Shown piece by piece: positions 2,657 through 10,488 of a stretch of DNA of 40,592 nucleotides. The stretch is from Acidithrix ferrooxidans. GTDB taxonomy: Bacteria > Actinomycetota > Acidimicrobiia > Acidimicrobiales > Acidimicrobiaceae. The notes below the pieces were generated by a model that was given only the letters and a program-made list of their open reading frames with translations, searched no databases and was not told where the DNA came from. Where the stretch lies: contig NZ_JXYS01000065.1 of NCBI RefSeq assembly GCF_000949295.1, forward strand, positions 1 through 40,592, written 5' to 3'. The number at the start of each line of letters is the position of its first letter. Position 1 is the first letter of the stretch. Made by a program: the position numbers and the translations under genes.

Positions 2657-3358
2657 GTGTCCGGACAGGTGAGTCGTGGCTCGGTCTTACCGAGCGAGGC
2701 GGCCCTTTCACGAACTCATAGGGCTAGTCGGATTACTGTAAGAAAAGCTCTCGATGTCTTGAGAAGCGAGGGCCTTGTTGACTCAAGACAGGGTTTTGGT
2801 TGGATCGCGAATTCAGACCCGGTACGTCAGAGCTTAGGGCGCTTCACTACCATTGAAGCCCAGATGTCTGAACGAGGTGTTAAACCGGGCAGGAAGATTA
2901 TCTCCGCACGGGTTGAGATCGCCGAGGGCCGGCTGAAGGAGATTCTCGGCGAGGGCGAGTTGCTTGTCATAACGAGAATCAACCTCGCCGATGGTAATCC
3001 GTTTGCTAGGGTTACAGTTTGGGTTCCGGCGCAAATTGGTGCTCAGTTTTCGATACCTGAACTGGAGGAGGCGAGTTTGTATGATCTTTTGGGGGAGCGG
3101 GGTAATCTAGCTAAGCGTCTGAGTCGGGCGGTGCAGACAATTGTGGCCATTGCAATCGACCATGACGATGCCAAGTTGCTTGGAGTACCGCGTGACTCGC
3201 CGGCGCTTTGGTGTGAGAGGATTACCTATGATGAAGACGGTGGGGCCAAACTTTATTCAGTCTCCGTCTTTCCTGGTCATAAAACGGAATTTGTTACCGA
3301 GTTGGTTAGTGAGCCAGATTCTATAGCTCCTTCGGGTCTGCGTCTAGTGCAATCATAG
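2657..3358 (+). CDS. GntR-family transcriptional regulator, HutC/UTRA type
   Basis: The N-terminal winged helix-turn-helix contains LPSEAALSRTHRASR and ITVRKALDVLRSEGLV, then the wing (DSRQGFGW). The C-terminal half is a UTRA ligand-binding domain: RFTTIEAQMSERGVKPG, then about 140 residues ending SVSVFPGHKTEFVTEL. HutC-type members bind a small effector and usually repress nearby catabolic or transport genes. The start is a problem. The GTG at 2657 omits recognisable helix 1, because upstream in-frame codons read PRYIEIASSLRTQIVSG, a typical GntR start. No ATG, GTG or TTG lies in that frame between the TGA at 2549-2551 and 2657. The gene may use an unusual start or have lost its start. No obvious target operon lies beside it on the same strand. 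Confidence 0.8.
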   Translation: MSGQVSRGSVLPSEAALSRTHRASRITVRKALDVLRSEGLVDSRQGFGWIANSDPVRQSLGRFTTIEAQMSERGVKPGRKIISARVEIAEGRLKEILGEGELLVITRINLADGNPFARVTVWVPAQIGAQFSIPELEEASLYDLLGERGNLAKRLSRAVQTIVAIAIDHDDAKLLGVPRDSPALWCERITYDEDGGAKLYSVSVFPGHKTEFVTELVSEPDSIAPSGLRLVQS

Positions 3359-3732: not shown

Positions 3733-4668
3733 TCAGAGTGGCTTGTCGATAAATGGTAATCTTGGCCAACGACTTTTCTTTGAATCTTCAAAGGTGTCGC
3801 TAAACCTGGGACGATTCCACTCTGCTATCCAGGAATTATCGCCATTGTCGGCTAAGTCCGGCGTGGAACTTGCTCCGCTTCTTAGCGCAGCGTCCCAGTA
3901 GTCGCTGTAGACCTCATCTCCAAGACGGTTGACCGCACTTTGTAACTCTTTGGTTAAATCACGGGGATTTGAACCGCTAGGACTTATTGGCCTGCCAAAG
4001 TTTACAACTGTAGAACCGGGGCTAAAGCCTTTTTTATTTTTACCTAGGACCTCATAGGTGCCACCTATGAAGACGGGTACGATGGTCGAGCCTGTCTTTA
4101 GGGCTAGCTGCGCGACGCCCCCTTTGAACTCCCTTGCGAAACCGTCAGGGGTTCTGCCGCCTTCAGGAAAGAGAATTAGGTTCCAGTCATCGCGCAGGAT
4201 CTCTAAGGCTAAATCGGTTGATCTTCTCGATACCCTTGTTCTCTCGATAGGAATTGCTCCTAAGAGGAATGACCAGATGACTGCCTTGTATTTGCGGTCA
4301 AAGAAGTAGTCTGCTCCGGCTCCAACAGCCGTCTTGTGGCGAAAGTCATCTGGAAGCACCGAGAGTAGAAGCGGAGTATCTAAGTGAGAGGCATGGTTAG
4401 CGGCAAAGATAACAGGTACGTCGATACCCTTTAGGCGATCGGTACCGAGCACTTTTGGGGAGGCAACTATATTTATCGCGGGTTTAGTGACATAGTCAGT
4501 TATCAGTGATCGTACAAGACGTACTGAGTACCTTCTAGCCCATTCTGTATCGTAGTTTGCACCGAGTTTTGACTTGGGAATTGTTCTTTCTACATTGGCT
4601 GGCCAAGTGGGCCGACCAAGTGGGAAGGGCATAGTTATCTTGCCCAGTAGTCCACGCATTTTTGCCAT
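3733..4668 (-). CDS. 1-acyl-sn-glycerol-3-phosphate acyltransferase family protein (PlsC-like)
   Basis: 311 residues. The acyltransferase block I is NHASHLDTPLL (His92 and Asp97 of the HX4D motif), and block III is FPEGGRTPDG at about 168-177, a variant of FPEGTR. Block IV-like GGTYEVLG follows. This family transfers acyl groups from acyl-CoA or acyl-ACP to lysophosphatidate or related alcohols at the membrane. It is the last gene of the minus-strand set, 37 bp downstream of the LarA-like gene, and so probably co-transcribed with it. A second, more standard PlsC lies at 27358-28071, so this copy may serve the cluster's own lipid. The C-terminal extension beyond about residue 240 is less conserved. 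Confidence 0.88.
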   Translation of the reverse strand: MAKMRGLLGKITMPFPLGRPTWPANVERTIPKSKLGANYDTEWARRYSVRLVRSLITDYVTKPAINIVASPKVLGTDRLKGIDVPVIFAANHASHLDTPLLLSVLPDDFRHKTAVGAGADYFFDRKYKAVIWSFLLGAIPIERTRVSRRSTDLALEILRDDWNLILFPEGGRTPDGFAREFKGGVAQLALKTGSTIVPVFIGGTYEVLGKNKKGFSPGSTVVNFGRPISPSGSNPRDLTKELQSAVNRLGDEVYSDYWDAALRSGASSTPDLADNGDNSWIAEWNRPRFSDTFEDSKKSRWPRLPFIDKPL

Positions 4669-4705
4669 TGCTCGTCCTTGGTATTAGATCTTTTCGAATT
4701 CTAGA

Positions 4706-6295
4706 TTATTCAACTTGAGCCATCAACAGAGGAGGTGAGTGCAAGTGTGTAATCGACGGAGAAGTACCAACATAAGCCGAGGCCATTGCTAATGCGTCAT
4801 TAAGGGTACTTGCTGCCATGAAACCCAGTCGCTTTGCAACCTTAGGGTCGCCACCAAGAATAATCACTGCTCCGAGGTGGTCAAGTGCGTGGGCTCCCCA
4901 GTACCACATATAGAACGGATGAACTCCATGGTATGCGTTACCTGTTCTATAGAGATGGATATACCAGGGGTCCTCAGCGTAACTCTTTTCGTACTTTGCC
5001 TCGATCTCAATTGGATCTGTGGTTTCACTTAGGACGTTTTCGTAAAAGTCAATGTAGGAAGGGTGAAAGACCGGGTCAAATTCGTTGCGCGTGGGGTGGC
5101 TCATTATCAACACACCTCCCTTTCGCACGAGAGGCTTGTTTTTGTACATATTAAAGAAATACCCAAGTCCCAAACAATAGACCAGAATTGGGTTCATGAT
5201 CGAATTGACGTTGTATGGACCAATGAATGGCAAACCCATAGTCAATATGTCGGATTGTCCAGAGACATGAACCAGTTGTTGCTTGTAGACCCGCTCAAGC
5301 GTCTTTTCATGGACGGCGTCTACCTCACCTGCGTTCACGCCAGTAAGGCCATAGGGAGATCTTATGGAGTGAAAGATATTACGAGCCATCCATGGGGGAG
5401 TGGCCTCTAGAGCTTTAGATGTGGTGATGAATTTCGCGCGGTCTTTTAGGTTCCACTCCCATTCGCGCTTTTGGAGGAATTCGAATTGCTTTGGAAAGGT
5501 GTCGTTATTTAGAGTGGTTTCGATCTGGAAGATCTTGATGCCTGCCTCTTTTATGACTGCTCCCATCCTCCAGTTGGACGAGTGCAACTGCGAATTGTGA
5601 CGATCCATAAATGACTTAGAGTGGACCATTGTCTTTACGTTATGGTGATGTCTTAGGCTCCGATAGCTAGATAGACCAGTAGCTACGCTCTTGTGGCCGC
5701 CATCCATGGAGACTAAATTGACATTTACATAGACTATCAGGTCGCTTTCAGCGGCGCGCTTGGAGATTTCGACCTCTTCGCCCTGTGGCGTGAGGCCTAT
5801 AAAGCTAAGCCCCTTGGGATCTTCGGCGTCGTGCTGCAAAAGGAGACCGCGTGGGTAAAACGAGTCATAAACTCGATCTCCGACCGCATGGCGAAGTTCG
5901 GATTCGGTCATTCGGCGATGGAGAGCTAAAGCAGCTATCAGCACCACGTCCTCGACGCCTGCTCTAGCCGCACGCTCTAATACTGCTTCAATTATTAGGG
6001 AGCGAATGTCGGGTGAGACCATTTGAGGAAGAGGAAGCGACACGTCGTCAAAGGCGATTGTCAAGCGCATCCCTGAGGTCAGAAGGGTATCCAACGGATC
6101 GCTATCGCCAACTGGGTTGTCCAGAGCATCTTCGATGGCCCCGAGAGGGTCAGATAAAGATGGTAGCGATTCAGGTGCATAGATGACAGATGAACCTTCG
6201 GGAAGTTTTTCAATTCGATAGCCTTCGCCGTGCCAAAAGAGAGTTCCCGGATACGACTTGTCTACATTTAGGATAAATCCAGGTCTAGGACTCAA
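4706..6295 (-). CDS. LarA-like (DUF2088, lactate racemase domain) protein
   Basis: 529 residues, TTG start directly after the TAA of the upstream dehydrogenase (TAATTG), so translation is probably coupled. LarA-type landmarks are AFDDVSLPLP (about 81-90), ALHRRMTESEL (His126, aligning with catalytic His108 of the L. plantarum enzyme), HDAEDPKGLSFIGLTPQGEE, and GGHKSVATGLSSYRSLRHHH with Lys202 and His216-218. In LarA the equivalent Lys and His hold the nickel pincer nucleotide. The usual His about ten residues before that Lys is not present here (VNVNLVSMDGGHK). The protein is longer than LarA (about 425), with an N-terminal extension. The fold is supported; the reaction is unknown. Its place between a dehydrogenase and an acyltransferase suggests a hydroxy-acyl or sugar-lipid substrate, but that is inference. 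Confidence 0.75.
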   Translation of the reverse strand: MSPRPGFILNVDKSYPGTLFWHGEGYRIEKLPEGSSVIYAPESLPSLSDPLGAIEDALDNPVGDSDPLDTLLTSGMRLTIAFDDVSLPLPQMVSPDIRSLIIEAVLERAARAGVEDVVLIAALALHRRMTESELRHAVGDRVYDSFYPRGLLLQHDAEDPKGLSFIGLTPQGEEVEISKRAAESDLIVYVNVNLVSMDGGHKSVATGLSSYRSLRHHHNVKTMVHSKSFMDRHNSQLHSSNWRMGAVIKEAGIKIFQIETTLNNDTFPKQFEFLQKREWEWNLKDRAKFITTSKALEATPPWMARNIFHSIRSPYGLTGVNAGEVDAVHEKTLERVYKQQLVHVSGQSDILTMGLPFIGPYNVNSIMNPILVYCLGLGYFFNMYKNKPLVRKGGVLIMSHPTRNEFDPVFHPSYIDFYENVLSETTDPIEIEAKYEKSYAEDPWYIHLYRTGNAYHGVHPFYMWYWGAHALDHLGAVIILGGDPKVAKRLGFMAASTLNDALAMASAYVGTSPSITHLHSPPLLMAQVE

Positions 6296-7501
6296 TTAGG
6301 ATGCCTTTCGAGGTGTGTGTGAAACTTTGGATGCAGGGTCAAATGCGATCTTGGTCGCTCCTCTGCGCCCTGAATTTCTAGCGTGATTAATTGCTTCTTC
6401 GAAATCTTCGAGGGGATAAATTGTCGATACAAATCGCTCCAAGCCAAGCGAGTTGGCTCTTTGAATAGCGAGTTCAAATGTTCGTATCGTCTTATCTTCG
6501 TAGATTTCGCTACCATATGCGTAGGTGCCCACGATAGAGATTTGTTTGTGCCAAAGCGGAGTTAAATCTATTCGCATCGGAGAAGGAAGACCGGAGAGAA
6601 TTACAGTGCCACCAGGTCTAGTTATTTCGAGTGCATGGCTTAAGGTTTCATTTGTGCCAACACAATCAAATGTGGTATCGAAGCCGCCCATTACCCTATT
6701 GGCAACCATGATACCCTTTGACTTTCGCCTTGCAGTTCGACGTAGTTCGTCGTTGGAACGTAAAATCGAGGCACCGAACGAACTAGCTAGTTCGGCTTGG
6801 TTTGAGTAGCGGGCTAAGGCACTTACCTTGGCCTCAGGCGCCAAGGTGAAGAGGGCTGCGAGCGTCATCTGACCGACGGTTCCAGCGCCAATAACTGCTA
6901 CCTCAGAATCGGCCTTGGGCTTAGCTCGCAGAACTCCATGCATGGCACATGCAAGTGGTTCGATCATGAGGGCTGCTTCATTTGAGATCGACTCTGGCAA
7001 GTCATGGATTTGGCTCGGGTGGGCGATAAAGTTCTCAGACCATCCTCCGCCAGTTGAATGGCAGTAGCCAGTTTGAGTTCCACTATTTAGTGATCCGGAG
7101 ATGGTGTTTATGCATTTGTCGGTAGCGCCAACGCTGCAGTAGTCACAGAGGGGCGAGATTTCTCGTACGATGCAACTTAATCCCGGTTCAATTACCACTC
7201 GCCTTTTAGTCCCATCGTCATTGGGGGCAAGCGCAACAATTTCATGGCCGGGGACAAAAGGAAAGCTGGTGAAATCTTCGAAGTATCGAGAAGAAGATGA
7301 GTCCAGCATGGATATGTCAGAGCCACAGATTCCGCTCAAAAGTACCTTGCATTGTTGATAAGGAAGGTTCCTATTTGGTAGTTCGAAGTTAGTTGTGAAG
7401 TCTAAGGGAGAGACCGACGCATTGAAACGCGAACTAACCACGCTAAGAGTCCGCGTCGCCGCGTACCTCGTTGGAGATCTTGAGAATACTAAAGCTTTCA
7501 T
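6296..7501 (-). CDS. Zinc-dependent medium-chain alcohol dehydrogenase
   Basis: 401 residues. Catalytic zinc ligands are visible as Cys59 in GICGSD, His86-Glu87 in PFVPGHE and Glu181 in EPLACAMHGV. Structural-zinc cysteines cluster at Cys110, 119, 122 and 130. The Rossmann motif AVIGAGTVGQM (about 202-212) binds NAD(P). The spacing of the structural cysteines is looser than in classical ADHs. Its start overlaps the stop of the acyl-reductase fusion by 4 bp, and its stop abuts the LarA-like start, showing a single operon. A role interconverting an alcohol and an aldehyde or ketone made by its neighbours is likely; the substrate is not known. Confidence 0.85.
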   Translation of the reverse strand: MKALVFSRSPTRYAATRTLSVVSSRFNASVSPLDFTTNFELPNRNLPYQQCKVLLSGICGSDISMLDSSSSRYFEDFTSFPFVPGHEIVALAPNDDGTKRRVVIEPGLSCIVREISPLCDYCSVGATDKCINTISGSLNSGTQTGYCHSTGGGWSENFIAHPSQIHDLPESISNEAALMIEPLACAMHGVLRAKPKADSEVAVIGAGTVGQMTLAALFTLAPEAKVSALARYSNQAELASSFGASILRSNDELRRTARRKSKGIMVANRVMGGFDTTFDCVGTNETLSHALEITRPGGTVILSGLPSPMRIDLTPLWHKQISIVGTYAYGSEIYEDKTIRTFELAIQRANSLGLERFVSTIYPLEDFEEAINHARNSGRRGATKIAFDPASKVSHTPRKAS

Positions 7502-9837
7502 CGTGCTTTACCAATCGGGAGGAGTAGTTTTGAATGTCCTGGTTGCCGTTCCCAATTTTCTATCGTCCAACCCCGTCTTTTTGCCATCGCTAGTAGGCGC
7601 GGTTCTGGATTTACAGCCACCGGGAAGCCAACAGCCTCCAGCATTGGAAGATCGGATGACGAGTCCGCATATGCAACGCATTTGGAGAGGGATACCTCGT
7701 ATTTATCGGCAAAGTCTCCGAGCAGAATGGCTCGCGCTTCCCCGGTAGGTGGGGTTTGATCTAAGTTTCCGGTAAGGCGTCCACGGCTATCGGTCGTCAT
7801 GGTACATGCGACGATGTCGTCAAAGAGTGGCGCTAATGGTGCTATGACAAAGTCGAGTGCTCCCGTTATCAGTATCGTCTTGTGACCCAATCTGCGGTGA
7901 TGGCGAATCCGTTCGATAGCCCGAGGAAATGCTTTCTTTAGGAGGTAGGAGTTGAAGAGTTCGTTGGCGTCTTCACTGAGATGAGCCGCTTCTGCCTTTG
8001 AATAGCGTCGATAGAAGTTGCGTAGAAAGTCACCTCTATCACTTCGATCAGAGGCTATCAGCGACGGTCCTTCAGCCATTAGCGCGAGCGAAAAAAGTGC
8101 TTTCTTACCAAGAGGGAGATCTTTTGTTGCAAACCAGGCATATGCATCGACGACATTGGATGCTATAACTGTGTTCTCTAGGTCAAAAGCTGCCACTTTG
8201 AATTCATCGTTCAATATGGATGAGGTGGTACGATCCACTCGAGCGCTAGTGGACTTGCGATCTGGGGTCGTCTTTACTCTTGCGTGTTTGACTACTGAAG
8301 GTAGATGAATCTCTGTTACAAAAGAGTCCCAATTGATCAGTCGCGGATCGAATGCAAAATCTAATTGATCTGAGGCGCTTTGCTTATTCCAAAGCGCAAG
8401 GAGGTTCTTTACGTCAAAGATAGCTTCGGTCTCCGCGTAGGAGCCATAGAGCTTGACGTATGAAAGGGCTCTATTTATAGCCTCCTTCTTCTCCTCTAAG
8501 TCTGTTACGAGTTCGGCTCGTTCCCCTCTGAGGGGGAGATGTGAAATTATCGAATCAGCGAATTCTAAATTGGTAGCTAACCTTGCGAGTTGTTTTTGGA
8601 CCCGACCTCGGCCGGGGAAGTTCCACTCTGGTACCAGGATAGGTTGTCCCTGTGAATCATAAAGTGGGTGTTCTAGGAACCACTCTCGCACTAGGTCGAC
8701 AAGGACCTTATAGCGTAGAGGATTAGCAGAGCCCGAGGCAACCTGATAGACAGGAATATTTGTCGAAGGTTTTGGCTTATCTTCCGCAGCTACAGCAAGG
8801 ATGGTACCAGTTACAAAGTCGACGGGAATTACGTCGATTATGCCTTCAGGTACTCCGGGGAACTCCTTGAGGAGACCTCTAGCGTAGGAGATGATGATAG
8901 GCTCTGCCATTCGAAAGCCCTTTATCCACCCCGGAAATGGGTGGATCATTGAAGATTCAATAATAGAAGGTCGAACGACAGAGATGGCAAGGTCGGAGTG
9001 GTTGGAGACCAGTGCCTCTTCGCCTAATGCCTTTGTGTAGGTGTAGGCATCGGGCCATCCAAGCGACTGAGCTCTAGCAATTCCTAGTTCAACCAGACGA
9101 TCATTAACCCATTCGTCGCGAATCTTTTCGAGTTTTTGAGCTAAAAGCGGTCCACCAACCGCCCCTAGTTCTTTACGGGCGCTCTTTTTGAAGTCCTCGA
9201 GGCGCTCTGGGACTCGGGAGTCTCGTTCGACCTCGTCACGTAATTGAGAGGCTACGTTAACTTCAGTTTTAAAGTCAGGCATCGGCGAGAACGGGGTATT
9301 TCGAAGAAGCTTTTCGGGTGCTAACCCTCTGCGATAGCCAGCCACGTAGGCGGTTGAAACTGTAATAAAGTGGGTGTCGGTAGGGGCTTTCCCGGCTCTT
9401 TGGGCAGCCGCTTTGATTGCATCACCGACATTTGTTGGTCCAAGAAGGTTTACTGATACCGCTTGTGTCAATGGTGAGTCGAAACTAACGGTAGCTGCAG
9501 AGTGTACCACGATGTCAGCACTTGCAAGAGCGTCAAGACCAGAGTCGTCTAGGCCCAGAAGGGGCTTTGATACATCGCCTGGGACAGCACTTAGATGTGA
9601 ATTTATGTAACGGTCGAAGTCATCGCCAAAGCGTTCGCGCATGAGGTTGAATGCATCATTTTTAATGATCTCTCGCTTGGCACGCTCTATCGGAGATGCA
9701 CGACGGCCCGCCCTAATCAAAAGGATCAGCTTTGCGTCGGGAATAACATTTAGGATTCGTTCCGCTAGGGCAGTTCCTAGAAAACCGGTTGCTCCGGTCA
9801 CAAAGAATGTTTTGCCTTCGAGTGTTTGAGATATCAA
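7498..9837 (-). CDS. Fatty acyl-CoA reductase-like SDR fused to HAD-IB phosphatase-like domain
   Basis: 779 residues. Residues 1-380 form an extended SDR of the NAD-binding-4 (fatty acyl-CoA reductase) type: VTGATGFLG (13-21), VVHSAATVSFD, TVSTAYVAGY, and the active-site pair Tyr265/Lys269 in AYTYTKALGE. A helical linker of about 150 residues follows. Residues 545-779 are a HAD-IB domain: motif I FDLENTV (551-557), motif II TILITGALDF, and motif IV YADSSSDLPMLEAVGFPVAV. Motif I has Glu where most HAD phosphatases have the second Asp (DxE instead of DxD). Family knowledge suggests reduction of an acyl thioester to aldehyde or alcohol plus a phosphate-ester-acting domain. First of four tightly linked genes with the dehydrogenase, LarA-like and PlsC proteins. 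Confidence 0.82.
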   Translation of the reverse strand: MISQTLEGKTFFVTGATGFLGTALAERILNVIPDAKLILLIRAGRRASPIERAKREIIKNDAFNLMRERFGDDFDRYINSHLSAVPGDVSKPLLGLDDSGLDALASADIVVHSAATVSFDSPLTQAVSVNLLGPTNVGDAIKAAAQRAGKAPTDTHFITVSTAYVAGYRRGLAPEKLLRNTPFSPMPDFKTEVNVASQLRDEVERDSRVPERLEDFKKSARKELGAVGGPLLAQKLEKIRDEWVNDRLVELGIARAQSLGWPDAYTYTKALGEEALVSNHSDLAISVVRPSIIESSMIHPFPGWIKGFRMAEPIIISYARGLLKEFPGVPEGIIDVIPVDFVTGTILAVAAEDKPKPSTNIPVYQVASGSANPLRYKVLVDLVREWFLEHPLYDSQGQPILVPEWNFPGRGRVQKQLARLATNLEFADSIISHLPLRGERAELVTDLEEKKEAINRALSYVKLYGSYAETEAIFDVKNLLALWNKQSASDQLDFAFDPRLINWDSFVTEIHLPSVVKHARVKTTPDRKSTSARVDRTTSSILNDEFKVAAFDLENTVIASNVVDAYAWFATKDLPLGKKALFSLALMAEGPSLIASDRSDRGDFLRNFYRRYSKAEAAHLSEDANELFNSYLLKKAFPRAIERIRHHRRLGHKTILITGALDFVIAPLAPLFDDIVACTMTTDSRGRLTGNLDQTPPTGEARAILLGDFADKYEVSLSKCVAYADSSSDLPMLEAVGFPVAVNPEPRLLAMAKRRGWTIENWERQPGHSKLLLPIGKAR

Positions 9838-9954
9838 TTTTTCACCGTTTCTGCAATGAACTCGCTTGTTTTGGGCTTGGACTGCATAGTCACACCTTGA
9901 TTGACGATTAAACCCAAATAATTACTACGTTCACTATTAGTTCGGCCGTGGGAA

Positions 9955-10488
9955 CTATTTTTTGTTATCATGTTCTGAAGATGCACCACCCTTGGGTCCC
10001 AATCGGCCCAAGCTTCCGTAGAGTTGACTGCTAGGTGCTGGAGTTGGTTGTCTCTTTTTGCGGGGCTTTGGTGGTGTAATGCGTCGTGATTCGAATTGAA
10101 TTTGATTTTGAGTCGATGTGGCCTTTGCTGACTGCTTCGCCTCTGCGTTAGCTTTGATCCGATCCTTCTTGGGTTGCATGACAAATCTAAAGCCAGAAAA
10201 GGCCGCGAAGATAACAGCAGGCATCATCAAAACGACATATTTGCCAAGAGGTCCAAGTGAGAGTGCTAGTCCTGCGAACCCGACCCAAATTCGTTTGCCT
10301 ACAAAGACTGTAAGCGCAAAGAAGAGGGCAATCGCAACACCTTCAATCGCGTATATGTATGGAGATGATTGACCTTTGACGACCTTATCGTGAAGGTGGG
10401 GTATCCACAAGATCAAATAGACGACTATTGCATAGATTGCTATGGCGAAGCCAAGTAGCTTTTCTTTTTTATTTAGAAGCGAACGCAC
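9955..10488 (-). CDS. Small integral membrane protein, conserved actinobacterial hypothetical
   Basis: 177 residues. About four hydrophobic helices fill the first 105 residues (for example LLGFAIAIYAIVVYLILWI and YAIEGVAIALFFALTVFVG). A long, charged, Lys/Gln/Pro-rich cytoplasmic-type tail follows (PPKPRKKRQPTPAPSS). I recognise the general type but no function. It lies 117 bp upstream of the acyl-reductase fusion on the same strand and may belong to that transcript. An overlapping ORF in another frame (9834-10184) is treated as a shadow. Confidence 0.7.
   Translation of the reverse strand: MRSLLNKKEKLLGFAIAIYAIVVYLILWIPHLHDKVVKGQSSPYIYAIEGVAIALFFALTVFVGKRIWVGFAGLALSLGPLGKYVVLMMPAVIFAAFSGFRFVMQPKKDRIKANAEAKQSAKATSTQNQIQFESRRITPPKPRKKRQPTPAPSSQLYGSLGRLGPKGGASSEHDNKK

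Follow-up and report, generated by a model that had tools for sequence, protein, structure and literature searches.

A conserved actinobacterial operon linking a LarA-like protein to lipid-assembly enzymes, with a possible role in ether lipid synthesis

Results

The window, by which we mean the whole stretch of DNA analysed, comprises 40,592 nucleotides of Acidithrix ferrooxidans (contig NZ_JXYS01000065.1, positions 1 to 40,592). It carries four consecutive genes that encode a fatty acyl-CoA reductase (FAR) fused to a HAD-IB phosphatase-like domain, hereafter FAR-HAD, a zinc-type medium-chain dehydrogenase/reductase (MDR), a LarA-like protein of the nickel-pincer nucleotide (NPN) superfamily and a PlsC-type acyltransferase (Table 1). 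A preliminary description, made from the sequence alone, had proposed these four families, their layout on the minus strand and a small gene in front of them. Pfam and NCBIfam searches agree with the family assignments, and the coordinates of the open reading frames (ORFs) reproduce both the layout and the spacings: FAR-HAD and MDR overlap by 4 bp, the TTG start of the LarA-like gene abuts the MDR stop, and 37 bp separate the LarA-like gene from that of PlsC. We use LarAH14 as a short name for proteins that score above the cut-off of the NCBIfam family LarAH14/15/16 (NF052592), which spans groups 14, 15 and 16.

Table 1. Coordinates of the four operon genes and of the small gene preceding them in the window
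Product	Position	Strand	Remarks
FAR-HAD: fatty acyl-CoA reductase (short-chain dehydrogenase/reductase domain and FAR C-terminal part) joined to a HAD-IB phosphatase-like domain, 779 aa	7498-9837	-	
Zinc-type MDR dehydrogenase, 401 aa	6296-7501	-	Assigned from Pfam/NCBIfam and nearest solved relatives
LarA-like protein, LarAH14/15/16 family of the NPN superfamily, 529 aa	4706-6295	-	TTG start
PlsC-type acyltransferase, 311 aa	3733-4668	-	HX4D motif H92...D97
Small protein, 177 aa, possible fifth gene	9955-10488	-	No family match; probably membrane-bound by inspection

The recurrence of these genes was followed in a sample of 396 genomes drawn from the phylum Actinomycetota, in which LarAH14 was recognized by the NF052592 cut-off and FAR-HAD by a profile at E<=1e-60. 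LarAH14 is present in 86 of the 396 genomes and FAR-HAD in 95, and 84 have both. Only FAR-HAD was found in 11 genomes, five of which carry a sub-cut-off fragment of LarAH14 (G095, G138, G141, G287 and G309), and only LarAH14 in two (G387 and G394). In the order to which Acidithrix belongs, the two proteins occur together in 21 of 30 genomes and are both missing from the other nine; eight genomes from other orders of its class also yielded neither. A search of plasmids for LarAH14 returned seven records, with distant LarA matches only.

Gene order was examined in wide loci fetched from 53 of the 85 other genomes with an over-cut-off LarA, from seven genomes with a lower-scoring LarA, and from the best 80 named loci of 568 relatives, a set biased towards the kin of the window; genes were called by codon usage, longest-ORF calling having favoured antisense ORFs in GC-rich loci. 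Group A consists of 20 loci of the window's order and the 80 named loci (n = 100), group B of 17 loci from other families, group C of 16 loci of Rubrobacteraceae and group D of the seven lower-scoring LarA loci. FAR-HAD, MDR, LarA and PlsC follow one another without interruption on a single strand in 85 of the 100 loci of group A and in 16 of the 17 of group B; the median intergenic gaps in group A are -4, 0 and 8.5 nt. Among the 15 departures in group A, 13 reach the end of the locus, no LarA was called in L127, and L043 and L112 have no MDR between FAR-HAD and LarA. Ferrithrix thermotolerans DSM 19514 is among the close LarA relatives by sequence (best 80 of 568), and its locus, L106, shows all five genes of the window in an identical order. 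The neighbourhood search proposed in the preliminary description thus finds the four-family set together across the phylum, and the suspicion raised there, that the genes might be neighbours in this genome only, is contradicted by its recurrence in many genera, which is far beyond chance. The operon is real and is present in many families of the phylum. Because neither FAR-HAD nor MDR lies beside LarA in any of the seven group D loci (the one HAD-like ORF of the FAR-HAD cluster, in L085, is placed away from LarA), the lipid context is specific to the over-cut-off LarA family. Three loci titled Acidobacteria, Acidobacteriota and Bifidobacterium breve (L114, L124 and L162) encode LarAH14 proteins 68-72% identical to that of the window; these titles look wrong.

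The LarA-like protein of the window scores 891.6 bits against NF052592 (cut-off 740), over model positions 1-520 of 520, and matches Pfam Lar_N with E 7.4e-38. Structure prediction, another check suggested at the outset, gave an AlphaFold model with a mean pLDDT of 85.8 that bears out the LarA fold: its best structural match is 9q3k (E 1.7e-29), and 19 PDB chains match it at E<=0.001, of which 18 bear the title of a LarA-like protein, a lactate racemase or a malate racemase and the remaining one is 4nar. The top matches are the single-histidine proteins LarA_Sp (9q2u/9q3k) and LarA_Bw (9q3j), with TM-scores of 0.74/0.81 and 0.70/0.81 and identities of 20-24%. Residues were mapped onto Lactiplantibacillus LarA (5huq) by profile alignment, with residue roles taken from PMC7583248 (this and the other papers are cited here from extracts of their text). 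The catalytic Asp72 and His108 of LarA correspond to D84 and H126, and the NPN-binding Lys184 and His200 to K202 and H218; each of these four residues is invariant across 16 sequences. Opposite the second catalytic histidine, His174, the profile alignment places N193, in a part that contains gaps, and no fewer than 53 of the 54 over-cut-off sequences have N193; groups 14 and 15 have been reported to be devoid of this second histidine (PMC12611868). For LarA proteins that miss one histidine, action on a single enantiomer or movement of the hydride to a neighbouring site has been suggested (PMC12611868, PMC7583248). Because the second catalytic histidine aligns with Asn, plain epimerisation, one of the roles first imagined for this protein, is unlikely; a simple lactate-type racemase is made still less plausible by the Frankia LarAH14, which was inactive in all seven activities assayed (PMC7583248). 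An assignment of LarAH15 as a D-gluconate epimerase (PMC11770544) was not used here, as it concerns a Phytophthora enzyme of the GntE branch and apparently follows another numbering. The LarAH14 family is thus an orphan group within the NPN superfamily.

LarAH14 is accompanied by the genes for its putative cofactor. LarB and LarE both score over their cut-offs in 55 of 59 genomes with LarAH14, versus 2 of 20 without it and 0 of 17 without it within the same class (Fisher p ~1e-8 for the link within the class, kinship ignored). LarAH14 is the sole Lar_N match in 35 genomes, and LarB and LarE are found in 31 of these. Six of the 17 group B loci have larB, larC and larE within the stretch fetched around the operon, and representatives of the three match NCBIfam families; for LarC, the LarC2 part scores 139.7 against a cut-off of 50 and the LarC1 part falls just below its own. 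In the window's genome LarB and LarE reach 240.8 and 272.1 bits, respectively. This link is strong indirect evidence from which we predict that LarAH14 uses NPN. The window's genome also encodes a second Lar_N protein of 423 aa (genome G000, contig C113, 4251-4700, L180), nearest to a hexonate epimerase model (353 bits, cut-off 500), whose gene overlaps an ORF resembling gluconate kinase by inspection; on account of that gene, we discarded the idea that the LarA-like protein alone uses NPN in this genome. In the locus L043 (genome G263), where FAR-HAD, LarA and PlsC occur without an intervening MDR, the LarA residues checked are intact, although nowhere in that genome is LarB or LarE over the cut-off.

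In FAR-HAD, Pfam finds NAD_binding_4 (E 1.2e-52) and HAD (1.9e-24), with the Sterile domain at 34.7 bits, just below its cut-off of 35.4. The cofactor motif and YxxxK motif of FAR are both present in the window's protein, and 95% or more of the 111 sequences aligned keep TGxTGFxG, Y265xxxK269, D552, D725 and D729. The possibility raised in the preliminary description, that this fusion is an ordinary carboxylic acid reductase, does not hold: the protein has 779 aa with no adenylation or carrier domain detected by Pfam or NCBIfam, and its best solved relative is the fatty acyl-CoA reductase 7eoz (214 bits). Motif I of the HAD domain, DxDx(T/V) in HAD phosphatases, reads DLENT in the window; DxE is found in 84 of 84 group A sequences and 10 of 15 in group B, and DxD in 5 of 15 in group B and 12 of 12 in Rubrobacteraceae. 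Because of this difference between group A and Rubrobacteraceae, phosphatase activity of the window's HAD domain is uncertain. In eight Rubrobacteraceae genomes (G026, G087, G109, G119, G173, G206, G237 and G270) the FAR-HAD frame contains one internal stop codon, which could mean that FAR and HAD are two genes there, that the gene is damaged or that the assembly is at fault. The MDR matches ADH_zinc_N and ADH_N in Pfam, and its nearest solved relatives are ketose reductase and other polyol dehydrogenases. Residues C59, H86 and E87, present in 125 of 125 aligned sequences, and E181, present in 121 of 125, are presumably the zinc ligands. Some Rubrobacteraceae loci (L067, L071 and L072) have a second MDR-family gene downstream of LarA. 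PlsC matches the Acyltransferase family (PF01553, 68.9 bits, E 5e-19), and H92 and D97 of its HX4D motif are conserved in 95% or more of the 134 cluster members aligned.

In Rubrobacteraceae a different acyltransferase accompanies the operon. This family (our f25) was identified by 3251 bases of the Rubrobacter indicoceani plasmid NZ_CP031116.1, which equal genome G076 over their full length at 100% and at the same coordinates. In 18 of the 18 Rubrobacteraceae genomes tested, the genome's only over-cut-off PlsY lies beside FAR-HAD on the same contig, with 15-163 nt between the matched stretches; the representative scores 186 bits against a cut-off of 137, and weaker PlsY-like matches occur elsewhere in 8 of the 18. 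PlsC and PlsY both use glycerol phosphates as substrates. The Rubrobacterales are dominated by mixed ether/ester lipids, according to a paper title in the reference list of PMC11150832.

Two enzymes known to form ether bonds, AGPS and Ger, were also looked for. DUF2229, which we take to be a marker of Ger/PlsA, is found in 0 of 59 LarAH14 genomes, that of the window included, and in 3 of 20 genomes without LarAH14. An AGPS-like flavoprotein is encoded on another contig of the window's genome (G000 contig C83, 1105-1842, L200), with 273 bits to Dictyostelium AGPS against 91 to D-lactate dehydrogenase, so the notion that AGPS is absent everywhere was abandoned for this genome. With tblastn, similar sequences turn up in the loci of G134 (178 bits) and G289 (191 bits). 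In R. indicoceani, the sole Rubrobacter checked for both enzymes, no AGPS-like or Ger-like gene was found, ElbD not having been searched for: of the three FAD-oxidase_C proteins found in it, none is closest to AGPS. One is nearest to glycolate oxidase, another to D-lactate dehydrogenase and the third, judged from NCBIfam only, to YdiJ, each with a score below the curated cut-off. Because neither of the two enzymes was found there, LarAH14 is a candidate ether-bond enzyme in R. indicoceani; AGPS may play that part in the window's genome.

The small gene announced in the preliminary description is present upstream of FAR-HAD, and the membrane nature attributed to its product rests on inspection, no topology tool having been run. 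The 177-aa protein has no Pfam or NCBIfam match. Of 91 group A loci, 22 have a homologue immediately upstream of FAR-HAD and on its strand, and the homologue of L154 scores 22 bits against the cut-off of 110 for the SCO2097 family. In 45 of the 91 loci, the gene upstream of FAR-HAD is a divergent TetR gene. At the other end of the operon, a GntR/UTRA regulator gene (window 2657-3358) is convergent with PlsC, an arrangement also seen after PlsC in Ferrithrix (L106), and its cluster is represented in 24 group A loci. The first 2000 nucleotides of the window have a G+C content of 58%, versus 43.5-50% across the remaining 2-kb steps.

Discussion

The four families found together point to lipid assembly, as had been supposed, and among the products suggested in the preliminary description (a fatty alcohol, an ether-like lipid or a hydroxy-lipid) an ether-type product is the likeliest. 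We give a probability of about 0.5 to the proposal that the operon helps to build the ether-linked (1-O-alkyl) half of membrane glycerolipids. FAR would convert a fatty acyl thioester to an aldehyde or an alcohol, and MDR would reduce a carbonyl, which may belong to the fatty aldehyde or be the ketone at C2 of alkyl-dihydroxyacetone phosphate. The acyltransferase, PlsC in the window and PlsY in Rubrobacteraceae, would act on a glycerol-phosphate backbone, PlsC acylating the alkyl-glycerol phosphate. The LarA-like protein with its NPN would transfer a hydride at or next to glycerol C2, and it is unlikely to invert this centre as a racemase does because it has a single catalytic histidine. It might oxidise C2 transiently, the ketone then activating C1 for the exchange of acyl for alkyl, and return the hydride to the same face, in which case one histidine would be enough; alternatively, it might shift the hydride within the molecule. 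A bolder and rather doubtful version of this proposal is that LarAH14 itself forms the ether bond, in a reaction distinct from those of AGPS and Ger: NPN would take the C2 hydride of an acyl-glycerol phosphate, or shift it within a fatty-aldehyde hemiacetal, leaving the alkyl chain ether-linked at C1 and nothing inverted. Among the literature matches listed, we found neither a LarA protein in lipid synthesis nor this operon.

The abstract of a 2023 study of Rubrobacterales by Sinninghe Damste and colleagues reportedly describes 1-O-alkyl glycerols as abundant and puts forward a putative operon that would supply 1-O-alkyl glycerol phosphate. That operon may be the Rubrobacteraceae version of the one described here, which makes it doubtful that the pathway is undescribed, as was first thought.

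Several observations weigh against an ether-lipid role. The link to ether lipids depends on one lineage, the Rubrobacterales, and on one paper title, and no lipid data for any Acidimicrobiales were found among the literature matches listed. The association of PlsY with the operon is confined to Rubrobacteraceae, the window's genome having no PlsY match, and it is in this same family that gene order is loosest: LarA directly follows FAR-HAD/MDR in 6 of 16 group C loci, comes one gene further in 2 and is placed otherwise in 8. In G065, LarA and FAR-HAD are on different contigs. Four LarAH14 genomes (G263, G294, G084 and G106) have no LarB or LarE over the cut-off, and the NPN-binding Arg75 of LarA aligns with L87 in the window's protein, so that this residue is not kept; the LarA_Sp/LarA_Bw pair is reported to have Lys at a substituted position (PMC12611868). 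Group 16, which NF052592 spans together with groups 14 and 15, was left out of the 2020 study as probably not using NPN (PMC7583248), and the LarA activities described in the extracts of PMC7583248 and PMC11770544 concern small 2-hydroxy acids, not lipids. Finally, the AGPS-like flavoprotein means that LarAH14 need not form an ether bond in the window's genome.

This flavoprotein, with its relatives in the G134 and G289 loci, is what recommends an AGPS-type route, in which FAR would provide the alcohol, AGPS the ether bond and MDR the ketone reduction, PlsC would also take part, and the LarA-like protein would be an accessory that acts, for example, on a head-group or backbone precursor. We consider this route unlikely, given that none of the FAD-oxidase_C proteins of R. 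indicoceani is closest to AGPS and that AGPS-like proteins also occur in mycobacteria not known for ether lipids. Quite unlikely, in our opinion, is the synthesis of long-chain 1,2-diols or 2-hydroxy lipids, for which the LarA-like protein would act on C2 of a 2-hydroxy acid, FAR would reduce C1, MDR would act on the vicinal diol or hydroxyketone and PlsC would esterify the product. The substrates of LarA enzymes (PMC7583248, PMC11770544) and the polyol dehydrogenase relatives of the MDR would suit this scheme, and in Thermomicrobium roseum long-chain 1,2-diols replace glycerolipids, their synthesis being unclear in 2009 (PMC2615216); however, the Asn in place of the second catalytic histidine makes a simple epimerisation unlikely, and both the glycerol-3-phosphate acyltransferase PlsY in the Rubrobacteraceae set, which indicates a glycerol backbone, and the mixed ether/ester lipids of Rubrobacterales (title cited in PMC11150832) argue against it. 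Fatty alcohol or wax-ester metabolism, with which a FAR, an alcohol dehydrogenase and an acyltransferase would fit too, is very improbable, as LarA would then be a functionally separate passenger, against which its co-occurrence and adjacency with FAR-HAD across families speak, and as PlsC and PlsY act on glycerol phosphates.

Our results give an orphan nickel-pincer group a conserved metabolic context, which resembles the assembly of membrane lipids more than the metabolism of sugars or hydroxy acids, and they provide a set of genes with which actinobacterial ether lipids can be studied by experiment. If the ether-lipid proposal is true, NPN chemistry would extend from the racemisation of small acids to a step of glycerolipid synthesis, which would bear on the bacterial-archaeal lipid divide.

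Two ether-lipid systems offer a comparison. The mammalian route (FAR1, GNPAT, AGPS, a reductase and AGPAT) uses a comparable set of FAR, acyltransferase and reductase; it differs in that AGPS lies outside the window's operon, the LarA-like enzyme is additional here, and the mammalian reductase, as the extract of PMC13256971 indicates, is a short-chain dehydrogenase, versus an MDR here. The elb operon of Myxococcus xanthus also encodes together a FAR-like protein, a HAD protein and an AGPAT-like acyltransferase, but the extract of PMC9131029 names no LarA-like protein or MDR in it, the function of ElbC being unknown. ElbD has acyl-CoA synthetase and ACP domains, whereas none is present in the four genes of the window (the rest of the genome was not searched). 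Mutants in elb lose ether lipids (PMC9131029). On the LarA side, LarA_Sp and LarA_Bw also have Asn at the position of His174 but have been proposed to act in carbohydrate metabolism (PMC12611868). By score the window's protein falls into the NF052592 family, that of the Frankia LarAH14 (PMC7583248), and it is devoid of the second catalytic histidine, a trait described for groups 14 and 15 (PMC12611868). The extracts of PMC7583248 and PMC12611868 name no pathway for the LarAH14/15/16 family, which is found here in a conserved context of lipid genes.

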